Source of the DNA: a virus
Virus record (IMG/VR): IMGVR_UViG_3300033153_009841
Span: 1 to 43,790 of that record
Strand: one strand, 5' to 3'
Length of the DNA stretch: 43,790 nt
The position numbers and the translations under genes are program-made. The notes under the pieces are model-generated. The model had not been told where the DNA came from and made no database searches. It was given only the letters and a program-made list of their open reading frames with translations. This document shows positions 3,392 through 43,790 of the stretch, in pieces (within the stretch, counting starts at the first letter, position 1; every line of letters starts with the position of its first letter).

Positions 3392-3436
3392 CTCGTTCCC
3401 TTCCGGCCGCCTCCGGCACCCATTGTCAAAGTCACA

Positions 3437-4083
3437 AGCCAAGTCGTTGTCATCGTCGCAGCCATCGCCATCGCCAAGGCCAGTGCCACCAGCTCAGTCA
3501 ACGCCACCGCCATCGCCAACGCCATTGCCAAGGCCAAGAGCTAAGTCATCGTCACCGCCAGAGCCATTGCCATCGCCAAAGCCATCAGCTCAGTCATCGC
3601 CAGAGCCATTGCCATCGCCAAAGCCATCAGCTCAGTCATCGCCAGAGCCACCGCCATCGCCACCGCCATTGCCACTAGCTAAGTCATGGTCAGCGCCATA
3701 GCCAAGGCCAAAGCCACCGCCAGGGCAATGGCCATTGCCAAAGATAGGAGCTAAGTCATCGTCACTGCCACCGCCAAGGCCAATGCCAAGGCCAGCGCCA
3801 TCAGCTAGGTCACAGCCATTGCCACGGCCAATGCCACGGCCAATGCCACAGCCACCAGCTAGGTCATGGCCACTGCCAATGCCAAAGCCATGGCCAGAGC
3901 CATCAGCTAAGTCATCGTCAACGCCACAGCCACCGCCATCGCCATTGCCATCAGCTAAGTCATCGTCAACGCCATCGCCACCGCCATTGCCACAGCCAAC
4001 GCCAAAGCCAAAGCCAAAGCCACGAGCTAAGTCATCGCCAAGGCCACGGCCATAGTCAAGGCCACAGCCATCGCCATCGAGCT
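3437..4083. repeat. Phased hexanucleotide array (GCCNNN) with spaced boundary motif
   Basis: About 640 bp built from GCCATC, GCCATT, GCCACC, GCCAAG/A and similar hexamers on the plus strand. They are interrupted by an AGCT(A/C/G)(A/G)GTCA boundary motif starting near 3491, 3539, 3587, 3629, 3677, 3749, 3803, 3857, 3905, 3953 and 4025, with a related AGCC-AGTC form at 3437. Spacings are 54, 48, 48, 42, 48, 72, 54, 54, 48, 48 and 72 nt, all multiples of six. 3557-3598 and 3599-3640 are an exact 42-bp tandem duplication. On the minus strand one frame reads G-x-G-x...DDDLA with TGA stops and another reads x-A-x-A...MT with TAG stops. Neither is a normal gene, although the G-x-G-x frame runs into the 3173-3391 gene. 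Confidence 0.85.
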
Positions 4084-4089
4084 ATGCAG

Positions 4090-4740
4090 CTACGCTTCCG
4101 TAAGCTCGACAACCCGGCCCCGGCCAAAACCCATCTTGCGCGAGGCCCCCAGGCCGATCTCCTCGACTGCGTAAGCAAACAGCCGCTTCAAATCGTCCAC
4201 CTTCGCCGTCGGCTCGACGGCCGCCGTGCCAGTCGCCGTAAACGGCGACCCTTCCCCGAGGTAGCCCCCAATGAACTCGTTCTCCTGCCAACTCCGCTTA
4301 GTGGAACCGTCCAGCTTGACGAACCTGGCGTATACACCGTCGCCGTCAGTCCGGTCCGTGCGGAAGTCCGACAGCTGCACCAGGGCCCGAAACGAATCCT
4401 TCTCGTATTTGCCGCGGATGGCCTTCGGGGTCCGGCCGACCGTCTCCACGAGGCACCCGGCAAGCTGGTGCCGAGGAATGATGATCGGGCTGGTCTGATC
4501 CTTATCGTCCACGCGATACCACTGCCGCTTGGAGCTTTCGATCATCGCGTCGTAAGCATCCAACGTGATACCTTCCTTTTGACACTGCCCTTTCAGCGCC
4601 GCGAGCTTCTTGTGCTCGATCTTCAAGCGGTTCACGCCTGAGTGCAGGTCAATAGAGATCACCCGGTCGCACTCCGGCCAATACGGGTGGGCAATGTAGT
4701 TTTCAAACTCGAATACACACCTAAGAACTTTTCGGGCCAT
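4090..4740 (-). CDS. RAMP-like protein (Cas7/Cas6-like glycine-rich loop)
   Basis: A 216-residue protein with its start at 4740 (MARKVLRC), preceded by AAAGGAAA and directly following the upstream zinc-ribbon stop. Near residues 88-97 is IPRHQLAGCL, resembling the 'IPGSSLKG' element of RAMP-superfamily CRISPR proteins. The C-terminus ends in GLGASRKMGFGRGRV (196-210), the glycine-rich loop typical of RAMPs. No cas neighbours and no repeat-spacer array are present, so this is not a CRISPR locus. A stand-alone RNA- or ssDNA-binding ferredoxin-like protein used in phage replication or anti-defence is possible. The family assignment rests on motif shape, not on a search; GC is visibly lower than in neighbouring genes. 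Confidence 0.5.
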   Translation of the reverse strand: MARKVLRCVFEFENYIAHPYWPECDRVISIDLHSGVNRLKIEHKKLAALKGQCQKEGITLDAYDAMIESSKRQWYRVDDKDQTSPIIIPRHQLAGCLVETVGRTPKAIRGKYEKDSFRALVQLSDFRTDRTDGDGVYARFVKLDGSTKRSWQENEFIGGYLGEGSPFTATGTAAVEPTAKVDDLKRLFAYAVEEIGLGASRKMGFGRGRVVELTEA

Positions 4741-9339: not shown

Positions 9340-10374
9340 TCAGAACAGTTCCTTTTGGACCAGCCGGCCCGGCTGGGGCAATTTGGCCAGGGCGTCGCCC
9401 AGGAGCTGCTCGGGGTCCACGTAGTGGTCGATCATCATCTGCATCCCCAGGCCCCGGTGGCCCATCATGATCTGCGCGGCCAGCGGGTTGATCTTGGCCA
9501 GCTCCGTCGAGAAGCAGCGGCGCAGACCGTACAGCGGCAAGGTCCGGATGCCGGCGGCCTGCTGCTGCCGGCGGCGGTGCTTGCGGAACGTGCTCTCGGC
9601 CTCCGGCCAGTTTTGCCAGCCGAACACCAATCCGGCCGCGCGCCGCAGCGGCTCGATAGCCTGCAGCGCCGGGTCGTTCAGCCAGACCCGCAGCCCATCC
9701 TCCCCCTTCGCGATCCCCGTGGGCACGGTCAGCCAATGGCCCGAGATCATCTCCCAGCGGATCCCGAAAAGCATCCCCGGCCGCAAACCGGTGTTGTAAT
9801 CCAGCAGGATCACCGCTCGCCACCAGGCGGGCGGATCGGCCACCGTGATCCGCGGCGTCGCGCGGGCCGTCGCGCCCAAGACCTCCAGCCAAGACTGGAT
9901 CTCGTCGAGCTGCAGGCCGGGCTTCGGCGCGCACTTTTTCTTGCGCGGCCCCCTCAGCCAGGGCGGCAACTCGATCACGGCGGCCCCCTCGGGATTTTGG
10001 CGGCTGGCCGGACCCGTCCACCGCAGCAGCCGCTCCAGGTTGACCCAGTGCTTGTAGATCGTGTTGCCCGCCAGCACCTCGTCGGTCCGCTTGTGCCGGG
10101 CCAGCGCCAAGCGGCCCAGGAACCGCGAGCAGGTCCGCTTGTCGATTTCCCGCAGCGGCGGGTCGCCCGTGAAGATCCGCCAATAGTCCAGCGACTTTTC
10201 GTAGTCCTTTCGCGTCCGCAGCTTGTCGCCCTTGGGTGCCAGGCAGTCGGGCCAGGCGTAGCGCCAAAAGAACTCCGAGAGCGTCATCTCCGCCGAGAGT
10301 TTTCTTGGGGGGGCAGTGGTCGCCGGACGATCGTCGTCGTCCGGCCAGATCACGTCGAACAGCGGATAGCTCAT
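9340..10374 (-). CDS. int: Tyrosine recombinase (phage integrase)
   Basis: A 344-residue site-specific recombinase for integration and excision. An N-terminal SAM-like core-binding domain spans about residues 28-118 and the catalytic domain about 155-330. Catalytic residues visible are Arg198 (TGLRPG), a candidate Lys223, Arg285 (LYGLRRCF), His306 (MGHRG) and the nucleophile Tyr318 (DHYVD). The usual first His of the H-x-x-R box is Tyr282, a substitution tolerated in some family members. The ATG at 10374 has GGAGGG upstream. It is followed by tandem terminators and lies about 1.8 kb from the tmRNA-like attachment candidate, the expected neighbourhood for int and attP. Confidence 0.93.
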   Translation of the reverse strand: MSYPLFDVIWPDDDDRPATTAPPRKLSAEMTLSEFFWRYAWPDCLAPKGDKLRTRKDYEKSLDYWRIFTGDPPLREIDKRTCSRFLGRLALARHKRTDEVLAGNTIYKHWVNLERLLRWTGPASRQNPEGAAVIELPPWLRGPRKKKCAPKPGLQLDEIQSWLEVLGATARATPRITVADPPAWWRAVILLDYNTGLRPGMLFGIRWEMISGHWLTVPTGIAKGEDGLRVWLNDPALQAIEPLRRAAGLVFGWQNWPEAESTFRKHRRRQQQAAGIRTLPLYGLRRCFSTELAKINPLAAQIMMGHRGLGMQMMIDHYVDPEQLLGDALAKLPQPGRLVQKELF

Positions 10375-11800: not shown

Positions 11801-11848
11801 CGTGACTTCTCGAGGATGCCGCCCGTGACCGCTGGACACCTGGTCTCG

Positions 11849-11945
11849 GGTGCGAATTGAGGGACGCAGGGTTGCAATACAAACCGCTCCACAGCCCGGG
11901 AAGTCCCAGGTGCCAAGAGTTTCCCTGCGCCCCTCAATTCGCACC
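11849..11945. ncRNA. Structured element A of a tandem pair
   Basis: A 23-bp outer stem (11849-11871 with 11923-11945, one A·C mismatch) encloses a conserved AAACCGCTCCACAG segment, a small inner hairpin with a 4-nt loop (about 11895-11910) and CAAGAGTTT. It is highly similar to element B at 11962-12056, and paired positions differ in a compensatory manner. The strand of any RNA product is unknown. Alternatives are integrase arm-type sites or a MITE-like element. Confidence 0.55.
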
Positions 11946-11961
11946 TTCTGGGGGGAACTCG

Positions 11962-12056
11962 GGTGTGAATTGAGGGACGCACGGTTGATCCAAACCGCTC
12001 CACAGTCCGGGTAGTCCCGGATGTCAAGAGTTTCCGTGCGCCCCTCAATTCACACC
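11962..12056. ncRNA. Structured element B of a tandem pair
   Basis: The outer stem 11962-11984 with 12034-12056 is 23 bp, with the same A·C mismatch as element A. The inner hairpin TCCGGG-TAGT-CCCGGA (12006-12021) is perfect. Relative to element A, outer pairs C-G to T-A and G-C to C-G and inner pair C-G to T-A have changed on both sides. No ORF explains the conservation. Confidence 0.55.
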
Positions 12057-12144
12057 TTTGTGGGGGGAAGGGGAACGCGGGATACATTCCCGCTGCCCCT
12101 TTCACGCCCTTCCAATCGGGGGCCTTTTAGTTTTATCCCCCCAA

Positions 12145-12178
12145 ACGGGTGGAGGCGGCGGGGATCGAACCCCCCGCC
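12145..12178 (-). other. 3'-tmRNA-like fragment, candidate attachment site (attP)
   Basis: On the minus strand a GGTTCGATCCCCGCC T-arm-like segment is followed by GCCTCCACC, matching the T-arm and acceptor 3' end of tmRNA (ssrA). The T-stem carries an extra G/mismatch and the 5' half and tag region are absent, since a plus-strand gene starts at 12350. Many integrases use the ssrA 3' end as attB, and such a phage carries a short copy as attP. Its place between the tail module and the integrase fits that. Confidence 0.55.
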
Positions 12179-12304: not shown

Positions 12305-12349
12305 CGACCCAGTCGGATCAACACCACCGGGACCGTGGAGGCCAGGCCG

Positions 12350-12778
12350 ATGGGCAACTACTTCAAGCGACTCTCGGGCGTCGTCGTGATCCTGGCCATC
12401 CCTGCTGGATGGATCGCCTTGGCCGCCTCCCAGGGCCTGTCGTACGCGGTAGGCATTGTGTCGGTGGGGCTGGTTGTCCTCGTCGCCCTCGCCGCCCTCC
12501 AAGCGCTCATTCTGCTGGACGTGAAGGAAAACCTCGAACTGCTCACCCGGCGCCAGCGGAAACGCGACGAGACCGAACGGCACGCGGAGCGAGACTACCG
12601 GACCGCGATCGACCAGACGCGAGAAAGAGAGTTCCGGCAGCGGGCTCGCAACATGGCCGAGATCCGCCGTGGCAAGCGCCGGCGGCTTGTGCGGACGCTG
12701 ACCCGCTACGCCTGGATTCCGATCGTGGCCGCGGCCGGCGTTGCGGTCGCCGTGCTGACCTACCTGCTGGTCGCTTGA
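12350..12778 (+). CDS. Plus-strand membrane protein, candidate lysogeny gene
   Basis: A 142-residue protein with three hydrophobic segments. Two are near the N-terminus (GVVVILAIPAGWIALAA at about 10-26; VGIVSVGLVVLVALAALQAL at about 34-54) and one is at the C-terminus (IPIVAAAGVAVAVLTYLLV). A long, highly charged helix (LLTRRQRKRDETERHAERDY, shown in part) lies between them. The start ATG follows GTGGAGGCCAGGCCG, a leader shared with the 11082 gene. Opposite orientation to the lytic genes and closeness to the attachment site suggest expression in the lysogen, for example superinfection exclusion; this is inference. Confidence 0.6.
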   Translation: MGNYFKRLSGVVVILAIPAGWIALAASQGLSYAVGIVSVGLVVLVALAALQALILLDVKENLELLTRRQRKRDETERHAERDYRTAIDQTREREFRQRARNMAEIRRGKRRRLVRTLTRYAWIPIVAAAGVAVAVLTYLLVA

Positions 12779-26568: not shown

Positions 26569-27549
26569 TCAGAGAATTGTGGTTAAGAGGTGCCCTGCCT
26601 CGGCGTACATCACCTTGATGTCCCGATCGTATCGGGCCCGCAGCACACTCCCGCGGACCTTCTCCTCACGATACTCCTCGGTGATGATCGCCAGCTCTTC
26701 GTCGCTGCCCAGCCCCGCGTTCTCTTCGCTCCACATGAACGTCCGGCCGATGCACGGTTCTTTCGGATCGTTCGTCTCGGCCACCCTACAGACCATTACG
26801 TAGGAGTCCGACCATATGCGGCTGATCGCGGCCGACTGGCCCTTCTTGGCCGTGTTTTTGATCCCGCCGGCCACGATGATGTACTCCAGACCGAAGAGCT
26901 GAGAAGCCACGGCGTGGTTGAGGTTCTTAGGATCGTCCGATCCGCTGTACTTGAGCAAGTCAACGACATTTGCGGTTCTCATCGCATACCACAACTGCCG
27001 GTGGTTCATCACGACCGCGTTCGGCTCGAGGCCCGAGTTGTCCTCGACGTATCGCTTGGCGCCCTCGATGTCCTCGATCGGCGTCCCGCTGGCCGCCACA
27101 CTCCACTTGTTCGAGACCGCGGTGGCCAGGCTGGCACCGGTCCAGACCGCGGTGTCGTACAGCGCCGCCGCGCAGGCGATTTCGTAATTCCGCAGCAGCA
27201 TATCGACCGCCCGCTGCGCGTGGATGTCCTCCGCGTCGAAGACGTCCCGGTAGACCTTCAGCGTCCTGTCGTCAAGGGGCTCTTCACGTGCTTTTTCTTG
27301 ACACGAGTAGGAGTAGCTGGAGATTTCGAAATCGCCCCGCTTGTATTCTCCACCGGGCGCCCGATCGTCCGGTTGCGTCTCCAGTAGGGCCTCCAGGGGG
27401 ATCTTGCCGACGTCGGCCGACTGGGCTCCTACCGGCACGGGCCGGAAGACCTGCGGAGCGACAAACTTCTTGCGGCTCATCGCCAGGTCGAACTCGGTGA
27501 ACGTGGCCGAGAGGTCCAGCCGCGTGATTGCTGTCGATGGAAGGGCCAT
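26569..27549 (-). CDS. Major capsid protein
   Basis: A 326-residue protein starting MALPSTAITRLDLSATF with AGGAGC upstream. Residues 30-100 form an N-arm and E-loop-like region, and residues about 250-326 form a beta-rich end (GLEYIIVAGGIKNTAKKGQS; IKVMYAEAGHLLTTIL). Length and pattern fit an HK97-fold gpE-type major head protein. It follows decoration and S49 protease genes, as in the lambda order. A hairpin with a T-rich tail lies just upstream (27571-27608). Confidence 0.85.
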   Translation of the reverse strand: MALPSTAITRLDLSATFTEFDLAMSRKKFVAPQVFRPVPVGAQSADVGKIPLEALLETQPDDRAPGGEYKRGDFEISSYSYSCQEKAREEPLDDRTLKVYRDVFDAEDIHAQRAVDMLLRNYEIACAAALYDTAVWTGASLATAVSNKWSVAASGTPIEDIEGAKRYVEDNSGLEPNAVVMNHRQLWYAMRTANVVDLLKYSGSDDPKNLNHAVASQLFGLEYIIVAGGIKNTAKKGQSAAISRIWSDSYVMVCRVAETNDPKEPCIGRTFMWSEENAGLGSDEELAIITEEYREEKVRGSVLRARYDRDIKVMYAEAGHLLTTIL

Positions 27550-27570
27550 TGTGCTCTCGCTCCTGTTGAA

Positions 27571-27608
27571 ATAGGAAAGGGGGCCGTGCGATTGCTCGCG
27601 CGGCCCCC
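27571..27608 (-). terminator. Hairpin with T-rich tail upstream of the capsid gene
   Basis: On the minus strand a 12-bp GC stem (arms 27597-27608 and 27579-27590, one mismatch) with a 6-nt loop is followed by TTTCCTATTTC and, soon after, the capsid ribosome site. It could be an attenuator, an RNA-processing stabiliser or a partial terminator separating decoration and capsid transcripts. Confidence 0.5.
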
Positions 27609-27750
27609 TCAACGGGCAGCGAAAGGTTGAGGCTTCTCCCGGTAGCGAACCGGTTCAGCCCTCGAAGTAGCCGGCGAGCTTCCGCCGGCCCCGTGTCAGT
27701 TGTCAGTCTCCAGTTGTCGGTTGTCCGCAGTGCCTATCGCACCGCGGTTA

Positions 27751-30240: not shown

Positions 30241-31863
30241 TCATTCCTTCTCTGCGTCCCCGCGACTCTGCGCGCGATCCTCTGTTTCCGGCATGATCGA
30301 CACCTGCACCCCGTCCGGGGTCGGCAGCGAGGCCACCTCCCGCCACGTCACGTCCAGCCCCGGGAACTCGGTATTCAGCTCCTGGGCCTTCACGTGCGCC
30401 TTGCGGATCAGCATCGCGTTGTCATCGCAGATCTCGTCGGACAGATCGCCCCAATCCATCCCGCGTTCGGCCGCCCGTCTCCGCTGGCTGGTCAGTGCGT
30501 TGCGGACCCGCAGCAGGTCCGCCGTAGCATCTTTCCAGGGGTCCACATACGGCCATGCACTTGGCTGGAACCGGTGCCCGAATATCTTGATGCCGTCTTT
30601 CGCCGCCGCGTTGCGCAGCGCGCTATCCCGGGCCATCCACTGCCGGACCTTCCAGTGGTATGTGGGCCGGTGAAACCGCGTGGCCAGCCACTTCTGATTC
30701 CGCCTGAAACCCAGCCGGGCCTGGTCGACCGCGCCCCGCCAGCCCGAGAAGTTCGTCTCCTTGGCGTCCAGCAGCACCATCACCAGCGGCATCCCCAGGT
30801 TGCAGCCGATCAACTGCAAGATCCACCTCGCAAACGGCACGAACTCCGGATTGGGCACGTTCGGCGAGAACCCCTGCAGCTCCTCGTCCGGATCGCCGAA
30901 GACCTGCAGCCCCGGCCCAATACCTTCGAGCGGCCACGTGCTACCGTCGCTCCGCGTCTGGGTCGTCCGCTCGCCCTGCTGCTCGGGCTCCTGGCCGGTC
31001 CCCTGCCAGCTCGGCCCCCGCTTGCGGAAGATCGCGAACGCCGAGCAGACCTGCGCCTGAACCAGCTTCGCGAAGATCACGTCGTCGATGATCGTGCTGG
31101 CCGTGAACATGGGGGCCAGCGCCGTGATCCCCCGGGTCTGAGTCGCCCGCCGCGGATCGTAGACGTGAAACACCTGTTTCTCGCCGTCCTCGCCGTAGGC
31201 CGGGATCTTCTCCACCTGCCCCACGCGGGACACCGTCTGCATGGGGCTGATATCATCCCTGGTGAACCAATACTCCTGGCGCTTGCGCTGCTGGTCGATC
31301 TTGACCCCGTGGATCACCGCGCTGCCGTCGGCGCGTTTCAGCTTGGCGTTGGTCGGTGTCCGTAGCCGGTGTGCCTCGACCAATTGCAGCGCCCCGGAGT
31401 CCCGCCCGGAGTCCCGGATCGGCAACGGCAGGATGTCGCCGGCCACGAAGCAGCTCCGCAGCACGATCTGTTCCATTTCCCAGAAGGTCAAGTCGCCGGC
31501 CACGTCGCACTGCTCGGCGTCCTCGGTCCAGTCGGTCCAGCGGGCAGCCAGATCCTTGTCCAGCTTCTCGTCCCCGGTCCGCACGTCCAACTTGAAGCCG
31601 TCCTGGATCGTATTCTGAACCGCCCGGGTGATCGTCTGGCCGATCGCCAGATCGTTCCGATCCAAATCCCGGGCATACTCCATCAGCTTCAGATACTGGG
31701 CCTCCGAGCGATAATGAAAATCCGCGCCGGACCCGGACGCGGAAACCCCGCTCCGCCGGCGCGTGAACCGCCCGGTCTTCGCGGCGTCGTAATCCGCCCG
31801 CAGGCCCGAGTACCACTCGGCCATCGTGGGTTGGTCGGAGTTGCGTCGCCGGGGTTGGACCAT
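30241..31863 (-). CDS. Portal protein (lambda B-like)
   Basis: A 540-residue portal. Motifs in order: ARDLDRNDLAIGQTITRAVQ (about 64-83), VYDPRRATQTRGITALAPMF (the conserved 'R-x-x-Q-x-RG' segment) and NLGMPLVMVLLDAKETNFSG typical of the lambda-B family. It forms the dodecameric DNA gate at the head vertex. The last 12 residues (DRAQSRGDAEKE) are encoded by a CTCTGCG-type short tandem repeat and look like an addition to the normal C-terminus. The start lacks a ribosome site. Confidence 0.9.
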   Translation of the reverse strand: MVQPRRRNSDQPTMAEWYSGLRADYDAAKTGRFTRRRSGVSASGSGADFHYRSEAQYLKLMEYARDLDRNDLAIGQTITRAVQNTIQDGFKLDVRTGDEKLDKDLAARWTDWTEDAEQCDVAGDLTFWEMEQIVLRSCFVAGDILPLPIRDSGRDSGALQLVEAHRLRTPTNAKLKRADGSAVIHGVKIDQQRKRQEYWFTRDDISPMQTVSRVGQVEKIPAYGEDGEKQVFHVYDPRRATQTRGITALAPMFTASTIIDDVIFAKLVQAQVCSAFAIFRKRGPSWQGTGQEPEQQGERTTQTRSDGSTWPLEGIGPGLQVFGDPDEELQGFSPNVPNPEFVPFARWILQLIGCNLGMPLVMVLLDAKETNFSGWRGAVDQARLGFRRNQKWLATRFHRPTYHWKVRQWMARDSALRNAAAKDGIKIFGHRFQPSAWPYVDPWKDATADLLRVRNALTSQRRRAAERGMDWGDLSDEICDDNAMLIRKAHVKAQELNTEFPGLDVTWREVASLPTPDGVQVSIMPETEDRAQSRGDAEKE

Positions 31864-36550: not shown

Positions 36551-37951
36551 TCATGATTCTGCATTTTCCGTCGGGTAGAACGCGATCTGTCGGCCGCCCG
36601 CCCCGCCGCGTCCCTGCCGGGTGATTAGCCCCCGCTCGACCAGCCCCCCGAGCTGCGTCCGGGCCGCGCTGGTGGAGAGGCCCGTCATGCGCGACACGAG
36701 CGAGACCGTGGCACCCGGCCAGCGCGCGACCACCTGCTCGACCGGCATCCGCGGCGCCGCCGAACCGAAGGCCGCCGAGCGGGCGTCTATAAACCTCCGC
36801 GCGTCCGCCGGCGCCGCCGCGGGGCCCACGTACTGGAAGCCGCCGGTGATCCGGCCGACAGAGCTGATGTGCTGAAGTTTGCCCAGCCCCTTGCCCGATT
36901 TCCGCAGTGCCGCGGCATAGAGGCCGGTTGTGCCGGTCGGGCCCGCTATCCCCACCCGCAACGTCTTCCAGTCCGGCGATCGCATCCGGTAGGCGATCAT
37001 GGCCGGGTGACCCGTGGTCGAGAAAGCCCGCCCGCCGGCACCCCGCCAGATCGATCCGCAAAACGCGCTTAAGCGATTGCCGATCCCCAGTCCCTGGTAG
37101 TCGGGCAGGACCACCGTGCGGTGCTCGCGCATATCGCCCGCGCGACAGTGCTTCGTCACGCGGTTCAGCCACGCCGAAAAGGCCACCGGAGAATCGCCCC
37201 AGAACGCGGCAAAGCACTTCGCCCCCACCAGGATGTTTCCGCTCAGATAGTGATGCCGCCGAAACAGAACCCAGGCTGAACGGTGGACCGGAGCGATCTC
37301 GATTTCGATTCTCGGTCGCCGAAGCCGCACCCTTGCCAGCCGCCCACTGGCCATGTCCAACACCCAATCCGCCTCCAGCCAGTTTACGATATCATAGTGG
37401 CAGGACACGGCCACGAACTTTCGGGCCAGTTTCCCCTTGCGGATCGCCTTGCTGACCGCCGCCGAGCCCACCTTGGCCACCGTGCGATCGACCACGCTGG
37501 TGAACTCGTCGTAGACCACGATCGGCTCCTCGCCCAACAGCGCCCGGGCCAAATCGCAACGGAACTGCTCGCCGTTGCTCAACACCGCGTAGGGCTTGAC
37601 CCAGCTCGGCGGCGAACTGAACCCCACCGCCGTCAAGGCGTGCGTGATCCGCTTGATGGGCAGATCCCCAAACCCGTCCACTACGGCCTTCTTATTGTCC
37701 CACCGGGCGCCGGAGTAGACTGCGCTACCAAACGCCTTCCGGGCGATGGTGGTTTTGCCGCTGCCCGAGGGCCCCACGATCGCGCCGATCTGCCAGTCCT
37801 CGGCAGCGTCCCCTTCATCCACCGCCGGAACCTCGACCGTGAACCGCTCTTGCAGCTTCTCTTCCAGCGGCACGTCGAACATCCCGGCGAGCTGGTCGAC
37901 GTGGAACGATCGCCGTACCGGGCAGGACACTACAGCGTCAATAGTCGGCAT
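36551..37951 (-). CDS. ABC-ATPase fused to acetyltransferase and winged helix (COG2401-like)
   Basis: A 466-residue fusion. The ABC ATPase part (about 40-210) has Walker A GPSGSGKTT (60-68), signature LSNGEQ (124-129), Walker B IVVYDEF (144-150) and switch His185. The GNAT-like part (about 215-360) has FRRHHYLSGNI and DYQGLGIGNRLSAF. The C-terminal winged helix (about 405-455) contains VSRMTGLSTSAARTQLGGLV. ABC-GNAT fusions (COG2401) are known from phages and archaea. The GNAT part shows weak resemblance to Mom-type DNA modification enzymes. The ATG has AGGAGG upstream and overlaps the end of the ParB-like gene. Confidence 0.75.
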   Translation of the reverse strand: MPTIDAVVSCPVRRSFHVDQLAGMFDVPLEEKLQERFTVEVPAVDEGDAAEDWQIGAIVGPSGSGKTTIARKAFGSAVYSGARWDNKKAVVDGFGDLPIKRITHALTAVGFSSPPSWVKPYAVLSNGEQFRCDLARALLGEEPIVVYDEFTSVVDRTVAKVGSAAVSKAIRKGKLARKFVAVSCHYDIVNWLEADWVLDMASGRLARVRLRRPRIEIEIAPVHRSAWVLFRRHHYLSGNILVGAKCFAAFWGDSPVAFSAWLNRVTKHCRAGDMREHRTVVLPDYQGLGIGNRLSAFCGSIWRGAGGRAFSTTGHPAMIAYRMRSPDWKTLRVGIAGPTGTTGLYAAALRKSGKGLGKLQHISSVGRITGGFQYVGPAAAPADARRFIDARSAAFGSAAPRMPVEQVVARWPGATVSLVSRMTGLSTSAARTQLGGLVERGLITRQGRGGAGGRQIAFYPTENAES

Positions 37952-38577
37952 TTCCGCCCCTCCTGCTGCAACTGCTCATAGACGGCCTTCTGCTCGTCTT
38001 CGCCCTCGCACTCCACTATCACGTTGTAATGCTCGGGCGCCGGCTCTTCCGCCGCCCCTCCCTTTTCTTTCTGGCTCTGCGTCTCTGCGTCTCCGCGCGA
38101 GTCTCCCTCCCCCGCCGGCTCCTCGACGGCCAGCGCCAACTCGGCCAACTGCAGGGCCGCGGCCAGGTCGGGCGTGCCCGCCTCCAGCTCCGCGATCTGC
38201 ACCGCCAGAATATCGAGATCCCAGCCGGCCAGCTCGGCCGTGCGGTTGTCCGCGAGCGAGAAGCCCCGCTGGGCGGCCTCGTCCTGCTCGACCCAGACCA
38301 CGGCCAGGTGCTTCCAGCCGAGTCCTCGGGCCGCGGCCAGCGTCCCGTTGCCGGCCACCACCTGCGAGTTGCGGCGGTTGACCACGATCGGTTTGAGCTG
38401 ACCAAACTCGCCCAGGCTGGCGGCGGTCGCCGCGATGTTCGGCTCGTCGTGGGTCCGCGCGTTTTGCGGGTCGGCCGTCAATTCCTCGATAGACACGGCC
38501 AGCGGCCGCAGATCCGCGGCGATATGCCCCAGCTCCCCAGCCGGCTTCTTCTTCGCGGCCCGCTTTTTGGTAGTCAT
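37930..38577 (-). CDS. ParB/sulfiredoxin-fold nuclease-like protein
   Basis: A 215-residue protein with GGAGTATT before the ATG. The ParB core (about 26-135) has ELTADPQNARTHDEPNIAA, SLGEFGQLKPIVVNRR and VVAGNGTLAAARGLG, the ParB/Srx signature. Residues near 163-172 (SRGDAETQSQ) are encoded by a CTCTGCG repeat tract in frame. ParB-like proteins in phages are associated with DNA modification and with replication control. The following ABC-GNAT gene overlaps its end. Confidence 0.8.
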   Translation of the reverse strand: MTTKKRAAKKKPAGELGHIAADLRPLAVSIEELTADPQNARTHDEPNIAATAASLGEFGQLKPIVVNRRNSQVVAGNGTLAAARGLGWKHLAVVWVEQDEAAQRGFSLADNRTAELAGWDLDILAVQIAELEAGTPDLAAALQLAELALAVEEPAGEGDSRGDAETQSQKEKGGAAEEPAPEHYNVIVECEGEDEQKAVYEQLQQEGRKCRLLTL

Positions 38578-39221: not shown

Positions 39222-39728
39222 TCATAACTCTACATCCTGCACACTACAGTCAATTTGCTCCAGCAGCCAGAGCACGGCCTGGGCATGATTGCCCACGCGC
39301 TTCCCGTCGAGGGTCCGCTCGCCGGCCAGGTCCAGCCCGGTGAACACCCGCCGCATCGTCGCCCGCTGCCGGGCGTTCCGTAACTGCACGTCGACGTGGC
39401 GCGGGCAAGTCCCCTCCTCGCCCGGCGCGATCGGCGGCCCCTGGGGCACGGAGATGATGGTGACGGGGCGAGGGGGCGAGGGGGTGAGGGGGTGAGGGGC
39501 GCCGTCCACGTCGGCGTCGGCCGCCAGGGGCTCGAACTCGCCTGTGTCGGGATCCCACGTCCCATCGACAAGCTCCCCTTGCCCGTCCGACGCCGGCATC
39601 ACCCGGCCACGGTGCGGTCCGGCGCCGATCTCGTCGCCGGACCGCACCGCCGAATCCGTCGCTGTGCGATCATCCACCGCCGCCGGCGTCGATGCGGGCC
39701 CCGCGCTTTTCTTCTTTCGCTTCGCCAT
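39222..39728 (-). CDS. Lys-rich N-terminus protein with in-frame repeat
   Basis: A 168-residue protein starting MAKRKKKSAGPASTPAAV. Residues 79-89 (HPLTPSPPRPV) come from a GGGTGAG repeat tract (39457-39500) inserted in frame. The C-terminal part is helical and beta-mixed (RATMRRVFTGLDLAGERTLD). The N-terminal 20 codons are duplicated in the 40123-40218 mini-gene. Function unknown. Confidence 0.55.
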   Translation of the reverse strand: MAKRKKKSAGPASTPAAVDDRTATDSAVRSGDEIGAGPHRGRVMPASDGQGELVDGTWDPDTGEFEPLAADADVDGAPHPLTPSPPRPVTIISVPQGPPIAPGEEGTCPRHVDVQLRNARQRATMRRVFTGLDLAGERTLDGKRVGNHAQAVLWLLEQIDCSVQDVEL

Positions 39729-40077
39729 GGTGTTTTCCTCTATGTCCTCGGTGTTCTCCGTGGTAATTCCCTGGCCGCTCGAGCCGATCAATCTCCCGGC
39801 TCAGGATGCCAACCAGTGACAACAACATGTCGCGTTGGGCTGCGACGACTTCAACTTCTTCGTGCTCGTCATCATCCAGAAAGCTGGGCGGAAGCTGCCA
39901 GTTGGGAAGCTGCCACTTGTCTACCACTGCAGCTTGCGCGTTTTCCTCTGTGTCCTCCGTGTCCTCCGTGGTAATTCGCCGCCCGACGATCCAGAGGCCC
40001 TGGCCGACGCCACCCATCGCGACGCAGATCAGCAGCAACACAAACCAGTCCGTGCGACTCAGCCTTTCCTTCTCCAT
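39670..40077 (-). CDS. Single-pass membrane protein with repeat-derived segments
   Basis: A 135-residue protein starting MEKERLSRTDWFVLLLI. A membrane segment (residues about 10-32) is followed by TTEDTEDTEENAQ, from a short tandem repeat (39945-39982), and a helical region. The C-terminal EHRGHRGKHHGEAKEEKRGA comes from a second tract (39732-39765) and runs into the next gene's start. The original C-terminus was probably earlier. Confidence 0.5.
   Translation of the reverse strand: MEKERLSRTDWFVLLLICVAMGGVGQGLWIVGRRITTEDTEDTEENAQAAVVDKWQLPNWQLPPSFLDDDEHEEVEVVAAQRDMLLSLVGILSREIDRLERPGNYHGEHRGHRGKHHGEAKEEKRGARIDAGGGG
39674..39732. repeat. 59-bp perfect direct repeat, copy 1
   Basis: 59 bp identical to 40164-40222. 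It covers the start codon and first 18 codons of the 39222-39728 gene. A recent segmental duplication is implied by perfect identity. Confidence 0.9.
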
Positions 40078-40122: not shown

Positions 40123-40218
40123 CTATCTTTCAGTGACACCGCCGTCCGTGTCGCCGACCGCGCCCACCGCCGCCGGCGTCGATGCGGGCCCCGCGCTTTT
40201 CTTCTTTCGCTTCGCCAT
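40123..40218 (-). pseudogene. Truncated duplicate of the 39222-39728 gene start
   Basis: A 31-residue frame starting MAKRKKKSAGPASTPAAV with 59 bp identical to the upstream part of the 39222 gene, then diverging and stopping. It is best read as a duplication remnant; it could also be a short expressed peptide because the same ribosome-site region is duplicated. Confidence 0.6.
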
Positions 40219-40381
40219 GGTGCTCTCCTCTGGATAGTGATCTCAATCCCAATTCCAACATCGCTCTCATCTCCGCCAGCAGGCGCAACCCGATCGCCAG
40301 CGGACTGATTCCGTGCGTTGCGATTTCTCCCTCCGCGTCTCGGCGTCTCTGCGCGCCAACCCTCGCCCTTCGCAGCTCCAT
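40130..40381 (-). CDS. Small basic protein with repeat-derived segment
   Basis: An 83-residue frame starting MELRRARVGAQRRRDA with AGGAAG upstream. The AQRRRDAEGE segment comes from a CTCTGCG repeat tract. GISPLAIGLRLLAEMRAMLE looks like a natural helix. The last part overlaps the mini-gene at 40123-40218. It could be an original gene disturbed by repeat insertions. Confidence 0.4.
   Translation of the reverse strand: MELRRARVGAQRRRDAEGEIATHGISPLAIGLRLLAEMRAMLELGLRSLSRGEHHGEAKEEKRGARIDAGGGGRGRRHGRRCH
40164..40222. repeat. 59-bp perfect direct repeat, copy 2
   Basis: Identical to 39674-39732, 490 bp away. Confidence 0.9.
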
Positions 40382-40899: not shown

Positions 40900-42945
40900 T
40901 CACCTTTCCGTGGCCAAGAAAGCCCGCCCATCCGGCATCCGCACCGGCGTAGGCCGCGACCCGGCCGGCGCCGGTGTCCGCGCCCCTTCCGACGTGCCCA
41001 CGATCCGCACGCCCAGCAGGTGCCCGGCGCAGGTGGCCAGGTAGCCGGCGTCGAAATAGTGGTTGGCCCTCGACTGCCGGACCCAGCGGCGGAGCAGGCC
41101 CTTGCCCGGTTTGAACTCCTCTTGGATCTTCTCCGACTCGCCGATCTGTTTTGCGATCGTGGTGTGTTCGTTGGGGTTGGTCGAATGGAAAAAGACCAGT
41201 GCCCCGGGCTGGCCCTCGGGCGTGGCCAGCCGTTCGTGCAGGTTCGACTTCCACTGATCGGAGTTGACCTCCACGCAAAACACGCGATCTTTCGGCAACA
41301 GCGAAATATGAAAACCGTCCCCGAGGTGCTTCACTTCGGCACCGGTCTTCTTGGGCTTCGAGTAGCTCTTGGCGTACTGCTGCCCGGCCCCGCGGCCCAG
41401 GCACGGCCGGAATCGCCGGTCGGTGCCCTGGCGTCGGACCCACTCGAATATGACGGCGGTTTGGTAACCGGCGTCGATCCACACTTGATCGGGGATCCGC
41501 GGCTGGCCTGCGCGGGTCTGCCAGCCGGCCAGCACGATGTTTTCCCGAAATTCATCGAGGGCCACGCAGACCGCCCGCTCCACTCCGAGGTCGTCGGTGA
41601 GGATCTCGAAGTAGCCGTAGTCCACGACGTGCCCCGAGCCGTCCTCTCGCCAGGCGATCGCGATCCAGGCCCCGAATCGCTTGTGGATATCCACGCCCAC
41701 GGTCAGGAACTTCGCGTCCTCGGGCACGAGCCCCTTGGTCTCCCGCCCGACGCGCTTCTTGATCTGCTCGGCCGAGAGCGGCGTCTCGTCCCAGAGTGGC
41801 GGCTTGTACGGCACGGCCCAGTAGAATTGCAGCAGCTCCTTCTTGGCGTTCTCTTCATCTTCCGCCCGGGCGGCCGACCATTCCTTGGCCGCGATCTTGC
41901 CGGTCGACCAGAACAGGTTTTGGAAGGCACTCCAGCGGAACCCGAGCGTATCGGTCTCGGCCGGTTTTCCCATTATCTCCCCGCCGGGTGTCAGCTCCTG
42001 GCCGCGGTGCAGCAGGCGGCCCTGCTGGACCATCCGGTATCGCTGCTCGTCGGTAATCTGCTCGCCGCAGTCGGGGCAATAGAAAGAGGCCTCCCGCGCG
42101 GCCTGGATCTTGGTCTCGGCCTCTTGCCAGCCGTGCAGGTGCTCTCGTTCGGGGGAGACCCATTTCGTGCAGTGCGGACACGGGTGAATGATCCGCGTGG
42201 TGGTCCCGGCCAGGTACTCTTGCCAGATCCGGCCGCCCTCGATCGAGACCGTGCACTCCAGCGAGATCTCCCGCTCGGAGTCGTCATACGACGCGGTCCG
42301 TGCCTCGAGCTGGCTGATCGGGTCGGCCTCACGGCTGGCCGCCCCGGCGGCGTCGAACTTGTCCACCTCGGTGGCCACCATCACGCGGGCCGTGAAGCCC
42401 GACCGCTTTTCATCCTTGCCCCGGCCGGACATGAATTTCAGCTTGGCGCCGTTTCGCAGCGTGACCGATTCCAGCTTGGTTCCGCCGCGGCTCCCGGCTC
42501 CACTGGCCGGCAACAGCCCGGCGTACCGCGTTCGCTCGATCACCGGCCGGATCTCGTCGTTCCACTTGTCGTGTGCCACGTCCATCGTCGGGACGCCGCA
42601 GACGACCGACTCCCGCATCTCGAACAGGTAGTAGCAGACCAGCACCGCAAATCCGTGAAAGGTCTTTCCGCTCTGCACGCAACCCAGGATCGCCCGGCGC
42701 CGCCACGGCCCGCGGTCCAGGCAATCGAACAAGAGGGCCCCGTAGGGCTGGCGGTGAGCCCGCCACTTCCGCCCGGCGAACTTTCCCTCGGGGATCACGA
42801 TCTCCTGCTCGGCGAACTGCCGGATCGTCCGTACGGCCGGAGCCCGGGCCGCGTCGACCAGCCAAGACAGCTCGTCATGCGCCGCTCGCCTTGTCGCGGG
42901 AGACAGGTCGCCGACGCCGCTTCCTCCGATCACCGCCACGGTCAT
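40900..42945 (-). CDS. Terminase large subunit (GpA-type)
   Basis: A 681-residue DNA-packaging motor. Walker A is GCVQSGKT (residues 88-95), with VMVATEVDKFD downstream as the Walker B region. A zinc-ribbon-like insertion follows (CPHCTKWV and CPDCGEQ). The nuclease domain begins near FLTVGVDIHKRF. It belongs to the lambda-GpA family. The start at 42945 (MTVAVIGGSG) with GAGG at about 6 nt is preferred over a 19-codon longer start; it overlaps the small-subunit end by about 70 nt. Confidence 0.93.
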   Translation of the reverse strand: MTVAVIGGSGVGDLSPATRRAAHDELSWLVDAARAPAVRTIRQFAEQEIVIPEGKFAGRKWRAHRQPYGALLFDCLDRGPWRRRAILGCVQSGKTFHGFAVLVCYYLFEMRESVVCGVPTMDVAHDKWNDEIRPVIERTRYAGLLPASGAGSRGGTKLESVTLRNGAKLKFMSGRGKDEKRSGFTARVMVATEVDKFDAAGAASREADPISQLEARTASYDDSEREISLECTVSIEGGRIWQEYLAGTTTRIIHPCPHCTKWVSPEREHLHGWQEAETKIQAAREASFYCPDCGEQITDEQRYRMVQQGRLLHRGQELTPGGEIMGKPAETDTLGFRWSAFQNLFWSTGKIAAKEWSAARAEDEENAKKELLQFYWAVPYKPPLWDETPLSAEQIKKRVGRETKGLVPEDAKFLTVGVDIHKRFGAWIAIAWREDGSGHVVDYGYFEILTDDLGVERAVCVALDEFRENIVLAGWQTRAGQPRIPDQVWIDAGYQTAVIFEWVRRQGTDRRFRPCLGRGAGQQYAKSYSKPKKTGAEVKHLGDGFHISLLPKDRVFCVEVNSDQWKSNLHERLATPEGQPGALVFFHSTNPNEHTTIAKQIGESEKIQEEFKPGKGLLRRWVRQSRANHYFDAGYLATCAGHLLGVRIVGTSEGARTPAPAGSRPTPVRMPDGRAFLATER

Positions 42946-43582
42946 CGCCAGCCTCGCTGCCAGGTGTCTCGCCGAAGGCGCGGTCGATCTCACGCTGCAC
43001 ATCGTCCAGGGCCTCCGTCATCACGTCGCCGGCCTCCGGGCCGAACTGCCGCCGGAGAATCTCTCCCGCCGAGCGGATCACCGCGGCCATTTTCCCGTGG
43101 GCCTGGTGCAGCTCGTCCCGAGGCAACAGCGAGCCCTCTTTCTGAAGTCGCTCCAGCCGTGCCAACTTGGCCCGCTCTTCCCGATAGCGCTCCAGTGCCG
43201 GCGAGGCCACGCCGCCCATCATCGGATCGTCCGAGTCGGGCGCATTCAGTCGCGTGGAGTTCGTGGCCAGAAAATCGTGCAGCCACGAAAGCAGGGCCGC
43301 CAGATCCACGGTCCGCCCGGCGATCGGCATCCCGTAGCGCTTGGCCTGGTCGATCAGCACGCGGGCCGACCGGCCGGACATTTCCCGGTAGTCCTTTTTC
43401 GGGCAGGTGCGGTAGTATCGCCACCGCCGCTGGGCCTCCTGTGCCTTCTCCAGCCGCTTCAGCGCCGCCCGCTCTTGCGAGCTGGGCACCTGGCCGGCCT
43501 GCACCTTGCGTAGGGCCGCGGCGGCAAGCTGCCGTTCGATCCGCTCCGACGCCGACTCCGCCGCCGCGTTGCGTTTTCCCAT
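42875..43582 (-). CDS. Terminase small subunit candidate
   Basis: A 235-residue, charged, helix-rich protein immediately upstream of the large subunit. The N-terminal helices (IERQLAAAALRKVQAGQVPS) and a basic central part (RRWRYYRTCPKKDYREMSG) followed by acidic and basic tail (RGGDRRKRRRRPVSRDKASG) suit a DNA-recognising small terminase. No ribosome site is strong. Identification rests on position and general features. Confidence 0.6.
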   Translation of the reverse strand: MGKRNAAAESASERIERQLAAAALRKVQAGQVPSSQERAALKRLEKAQEAQRRWRYYRTCPKKDYREMSGRSARVLIDQAKRYGMPIAGRTVDLAALLSWLHDFLATNSTRLNAPDSDDPMMGGVASPALERYREERAKLARLERLQKEGSLLPRDELHQAHGKMAAVIRSAGEILRRQFGPEAGDVMTEALDDVQREIDRAFGETPGSEAGDDRGGDRRKRRRRPVSRDKASGA

Positions 43583-43790
43583 GGTGCATAGGTCACAGTC
43601 TCTCTGCCGACGTAGTCGCACGCAACCCCGCGGCCGCGTCACAGCTCATGCCGGAGCTGAATCACGGCGTCGGTAGCCATCGGGTCACAGCCCCGCAGCC
43701 AAGCGAATCACGGCGTCCCAGTCCAGCGGCATCGCCGTACAAGAGTGAGTGAGTCCAAAAAACGCCCTTCCCGCAAAAACACCCCACCCG
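43583..43790. other. Right end: possible packaging-site region
   Basis: No gene of normal size. It has two copies of GAATCACGGCGTC (43659-43671 and 43705-43717) with tiny minus-strand frames MPLDWDAVIRLAAGL and MATDAVIQLRHEL spanning them. In lambda-like phages the cos/pac region lies just upstream of the small terminase, so these repeats are candidates for terminase recognition. If circular, this region joins the start of the window next to the holin-like gene. Confidence 0.4.

Follow-up and report, generated by a model that had tools for sequence, protein, structure and literature searches.

Two long hairpins stand in tandem at positions 11849-12056 of a virus record, between a presumed attachment site and the integrase gene, and the question they raise is whether their pairing reflects a function selected in RNA or DNA or the way in which palindromes arise. 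The window, i.e. the whole stretch of DNA that we analysed, is the entire record of 43,790 bases and belongs to a temperate tailed phage of a GC-rich bacterium; a planctomycete host, as implied by the original prediction, is plausible. Nearly all genes are carried on the minus strand, their order starting at the right end with the terminase small subunit (42875-43642, minus strand) and then the large subunit, and including the portal (30241-31863, minus strand) and major head protein (26569-27612, minus strand) genes and a tail-fibre-like gene near 14 kb. In minus-strand order the latter is ahead of a 24-nt fragment of a tmRNA 3' end (12148-12171, minus strand), and the tyrosine integrase gene int (9340-10374, minus strand) reads in the same direction as the tmRNA end and as the proposed hairpin RNA. 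Left of int are more genes, mostly of unassigned function. Searches by integrase or portal detected no close relatives of this phage.

Several other features were recorded along the window. An ABC-ATPase-like protein (phrog_11143) is encoded next to a ParB_N-domain protein at 36551-38577 (minus strand); the two are also adjacent in Gordonia phage Jace, the ATPase occurs in at least 594 viral stretches, and the pair is a conserved phage cassette whose function is unassigned. One phage protein (1063-2088, minus strand) has a collagen-like repeat behind a trypsin-like peptidase and gives weak matches to the protease parts of defence models, and an array of 6-nt periodicity at 3413-4078 (26 overlapping copies over ~660 nt) is probably a repetitive protein. 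Intergenic simple repeats of the GATTGATGA/ATGATGAA type are present in both orientations at 2094, 8993, 11004, 32681, 33289, 34109, 34546 and 35003, and a CTCTGCGTCTCCGCGCCTCTGCGCG-like motif is dispersed in seven copies, 62-80% alike and mostly at gene borders (11758, 24860, 30246, 38071, 39172, 40091 and 40327). Near the start of the packaging and head genes a 68-nt direct repeat is found at 39674-39741 and 40164-40231, its copies 97% identical and 490 nt apart.

Given that late genes, tmRNA fragment and int follow one another in the order usual for temperate tailed phages, we read the fragment as the presumed attP core. Its Rfam tmRNA score is weak (15.1 bits), and the identical 24-mer (with Y at one position) is carried by 62 viral DNA stretches, in many of them within complete tmRNA genes. 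Both a 24-nt tmRNA end and an integrase gene are present in the record, and a tmRNA 27-mer from the window was absent from 85,000 genomes. Cluster K1 mycobacteriophages likewise combine an attP core made of 24 bp of the tmRNA 3' end with a tyrosine integrase close by, and tandem long hairpins are not among the attP features described in the available part of that report (PMC3203893). On the far side of the fragment, a plus-strand reading frame (12335-12778) has a coding composition and predicts a 147-aa protein that matched no family above the cut-off.

Examining the interval between the fragment and int, we found the two elements where the original prediction had placed them: unit 1 (11849-11945, minus strand, 97 nt) and unit 2 (11962-12056, minus strand, 95 nt) lie 16 nt apart with 23-bp outer stems, and unit 2 is separated from the edge of the tmRNA fragment (12148) by 91 nt, close to the 100 nt originally estimated. 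Between fragment and unit 2 is a separate short hairpin (12068-12101; AAGGGG..GCGGGA-loop-TCCCGC..CCCCTT), which has no minus-strand U-run behind it. The order on the minus strand, i.e. tmRNA 3' end, short hairpin, two long hairpins and int, is consistent with an RNA read towards int; the start of int lies ~1.5 kb beyond the hairpins, and gene order as the sole link between the two counts against that reading. Coding was rejected for the hairpin interval, which lacks a coding signal and has a 2-nt indel between the copies, and its non-coding character also argues for an RNA. No promoter-like site was found by a sigma-70 consensus, a result that counts against the RNA reading and is a weak test, as the consensus may not be that of the host. 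Among 60 other viral tmRNA ends surveyed, strong hairpins downstream were not in general excess, which argues against a general tmRNA-linked function.

Folding of the minus strand gives both units one structure: a 23-bp outer stem with a bulge on its 3' side (9 nt in unit 1, 7 nt in unit 2), a 17-bp inner helix containing two bulges of one base each and a 1x1 loop, and a closing loop of 4 nt. Each copy folds independently to this common structure, though the structure was derived from these two sequences. Folding z-scores of -9.3 and -10.6 were obtained on the minus strand and of -6.8 and -8.5 on the plus strand, and none of 200 shuffled sequences was as stable as the units; as single-stranded DNA the units fold well on both strands (z -7 to -9). 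The minus-strand fold is ahead by 9-13 kcal/mol, and on this strand both copies have standard pairs at all 40 of 40 positions, compared with 35 and 37 on the plus strand, both of which point to an RNA of the minus strand. The A·C mismatch that the original prediction noted at outer position 16 is indeed kept in both copies; since an A·C on the plus strand is a G·U on the minus strand, it is a wobble pair. The segment AAACCGCTCCACAG, previously taken to be conserved and single-stranded, was an artefact of reading the plus strand, being paired within the 17-bp inner helix on the minus strand. Altogether five positions are A·C on the plus and G·U on the minus strand, three of them common to both copies and two in unit 1 alone. 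That the wobbles fall on the minus strand at all five positions (two-sided sign probability ~0.06) is suggestive only, since it was the minus-strand fold that guided the alignment of the inner helix. Other long palindromes showed no general one-sidedness of this kind.

Comparison of the two copies, which are 86-93% identical over aligned stretches, revealed 10 substituted columns and a 2-nt indel. Eight substitutions fall in pairs and none of them breaks a pair, which argues for the RNA reading, while the two unpaired substitutions and the indel are located in loop or bulge. The three compensated pairs originally reported are all real (columns 5/93, 21/77 and 36/51 of alignment A2); two further changes, at 33/55 (G·U/A-U) and 38/49 (U·G/C-G), had been overlooked. 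They are one-sided, create or remove a G·U on the minus strand, and also preserve pairing. Under random substitution, with the numbers of transitions and transversions held as in the real copies, the probability of at least three double compensations was 1.5e-4 and that of no broken pair 1e-4. With the 3' partner displaced by 1-3 columns, 32-49% of cells were paired instead of 100%, and all three double changes disappeared; a column-shuffle control (61/500, near 1 in 8) was uninformative with two sequences. Pairing kept between diverged copies, a mark of selected structured RNA, is seen here in two copies of one genome. Together, the data establish solidly that the hairpin pair is a real structured element and not a product of chance.

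The original prediction went further and took the compensation to imply that the fold is selected. This does not follow, as the two copies are tandem and in one genome, and template switching during replication homogenises the arms of palindromes and yields like compensatory changes without selection at the RNA level (PMC8794818); the same process counts against the RNA reading. It is a serious possibility, if short of a probable one, that the pair is a tandemly duplicated intergenic palindrome whose arms were matched by template switching or homogenisation and which has no selected function. At 21/77, template switching easily makes the flip from G-C to C-G, which is awkward to reach stepwise. 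The duplication (11845-12068, spacing 111-113 nt) includes the flanks, each hairpin being preceded by CTCG and followed by a TTNTGGGGGG-like G-run on the plus strand, as expected of a neutral duplicated palindrome. Moreover, in phage contigs that are GC-rich and linked to this phage through the ABC-ATPase gene, 11 inverted repeats spanning at least 80 nt were found versus 2 in GC-matched other viral contigs (463 kb each), a ratio of ~5 that is rough because the control contigs were non-randomly picked for a 14-mer or a tmRNA end. These long inverted repeats are unrelated in sequence, as if the phage lineage readily made and kept palindromes. Against a neutral origin, the column-16 wobble survives in both copies with a changed pair on either side of it (5/93 and 21/77), so that template switching would need at least three short separate events; furthermore, the one-sided changes fit only wobble pairing on the minus strand, and both copies retain their bulges.

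Unrelated inverted repeats, 83-118 nt in span and with arms of 21-28 bp, were found at six of the related loci (L192, L193, L198, L224, L227 and L246), some of them built from simple motifs (GGATGAA, CGCGGAG). A further related contig, L202, carries a 66-nt palindrome twice, at 4076-4141 and 2095-2160, in opposite orientation and 95% identical.

Searches for relatives of the hairpins cover RNA families, phages and bacterial genomes. Rfam 15 gave nothing at the gathering level in the window, in agreement with the original prediction that no known RNA family is involved; a permissive match, a miRNA-like stem across the two units at 24.5 of 80 bits, was judged to be chance. The covariance search that had been proposed as a check was run on Rfam and on viral loci and found no relative. 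Among 80 phage loci related through the ABC-ATPase (50 of them whole records) the element was absent, the L227 match (30.8 bits, E 0.0012) being a simple-repeat palindrome without sequence likeness whose homology we rejected. No homologue was found by blastn against phages and plasmids, by loop and stem patterns in IMG/VR or by loop pattern in 85,000 genomes, and three stem-pattern matches in IMG/VR had no partner arm and were dismissed as chance. The bare 14-mer occurs in at least 119 stretches, roughly the chance level, and the covariance model applied to 80 of these gave nothing convincing. The window holds no further copy of the hairpins, and no comparable tandem hairpins of phages are described in the literature searched. 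With no homologue from other genomes in which covariation could be compared, the RNA reading loses support and a neutral palindrome gains some; given that portal and integrase are without close relatives and the phage is thus isolated, the missing homologues are weak evidence.

Known element classes were likewise rejected. An intrinsic terminator was rejected because neither hairpin is followed by a T-run on either strand and a terminator scan listed none there; a retron msr/msd because the record has no match to the PF00078 reverse transcriptase, for which controls were positive; and an integron attC because the outer ends GGTGYG/CRCACC differ from the R''/R' boxes RYYYAAC/GTTRRRY, as judged from the box sequences alone. 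Neither dispersed copies nor a PF01797 Y1 transposase, as expected of a REP or IS200/IS605-derived element, was found in the record; the transposase for a REP-type element could be in the host instead. REP/RAYT and TIRYT elements are likewise extragenic imperfect palindromes able to form RNA or ssDNA hairpins, and differ in being 20-40 bp long (PMC3733652), whereas the phage units are ~97 nt, lack dispersed copies and any end tag visible by eye, and are not accompanied by a Y1 transposase in the window. A non-autonomous mobile palindrome (MITE, REP or IS200/IS605-derived), which the original prediction had considered, is therefore very unlikely: its MITE-like size and terminal inverted repeats and the recurrence of dispersed palindromes in L202 speak for it, but no other copy was found in the window, phages, plasmids, IMG/VR (stem or loop) or genomes (loop), and head-to-tail copies with common flanks look like one tandem duplication.

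The position of the hairpins between presumed attP core and int and their good folding as single-stranded DNA on both strands would also suit a DNA-level element, i.e. a cruciform or paired inverted sites to which integrase, a replication protein or some accessory factor binds. The usual arm-type sites are far shorter than these hairpin arms, a protein site requires no compensation over a 23-bp stem and an inner helix, and strand asymmetry would be unexpected, and we consider such an element unlikely. In Cluster K phages, inverted repeats located at gene starts and without covariation were interpreted as protein-binding sites, which is in favour of a DNA-level role (PMC3203893). A small RNA or decoy that acts in trans as an independent transcript, driven by a promoter of its own, is more improbable than any of the foregoing; the presence of two structured copies would fit a decoy and a small RNA at a prophage edge has precedent (PMC3861185), but the unit is almost entirely stem and the search by sigma-70 consensus, a weak test here, gave no promoter-like site.

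With the known element classes set aside, position and strand are left as the basis for the minus-strand RNA reading, which we put forward tentatively: tandem long hairpin RNAs transcribed from the minus strand between attP and int, either cut by a nuclease or blocking read-through. Leftward transcripts crossing attP would come from the late-gene side in the phage form and, in the lysogen, from the tmRNA gene re-formed at the junction; on the attP reading, the hairpins of the lysogen would then come immediately after an active tmRNA gene that is oriented towards int. Such transcripts would fold into two 40-pair hairpins, both of which a dsRNA nuclease (RNase III, for example) may cut and/or which may halt or destabilise the transcript, and the tmRNA side would thereby be separated from integrase expression. 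Here we infer transcription, processing, the effect on int and selection on the RNA alike. Intercistronic hairpins processed by RNase III are long, irregular and bulged and can part co-transcribed RNAs; the phage units resemble them in structure alone and, in contrast to them, are outside any known operon. Precedent for a small RNA beside int is given by ncRv12659 of PhiRv2, a non-coding transcript between the integrase gene and the tRNA att site at the prophage edge (PMC3861185); its transcript is known, whereas the phage hairpins are known from DNA. That the pair represents a new family of phage non-coding RNAs, i.e. tandem hairpins of the dsRNA-nuclease type at the attP-int border that insulate int from the highly transcribed tmRNA after integration, is distinctly doubtful.

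As to function, the minus-strand RNA and the neutral palindrome are about equally likely. The hairpin pair is an orphan structured element and of interest mainly as a testable case. If the neutral palindrome is true, it would be an example of clean arm-to-arm compensation between tandem copies that is not to be taken for selection, and a caution for RNA discovery from one genome. If the minus-strand RNA is true, it would indicate how a phage integrated in the tmRNA gene, with int co-directional, stops tmRNA read-through from driving its integrase.
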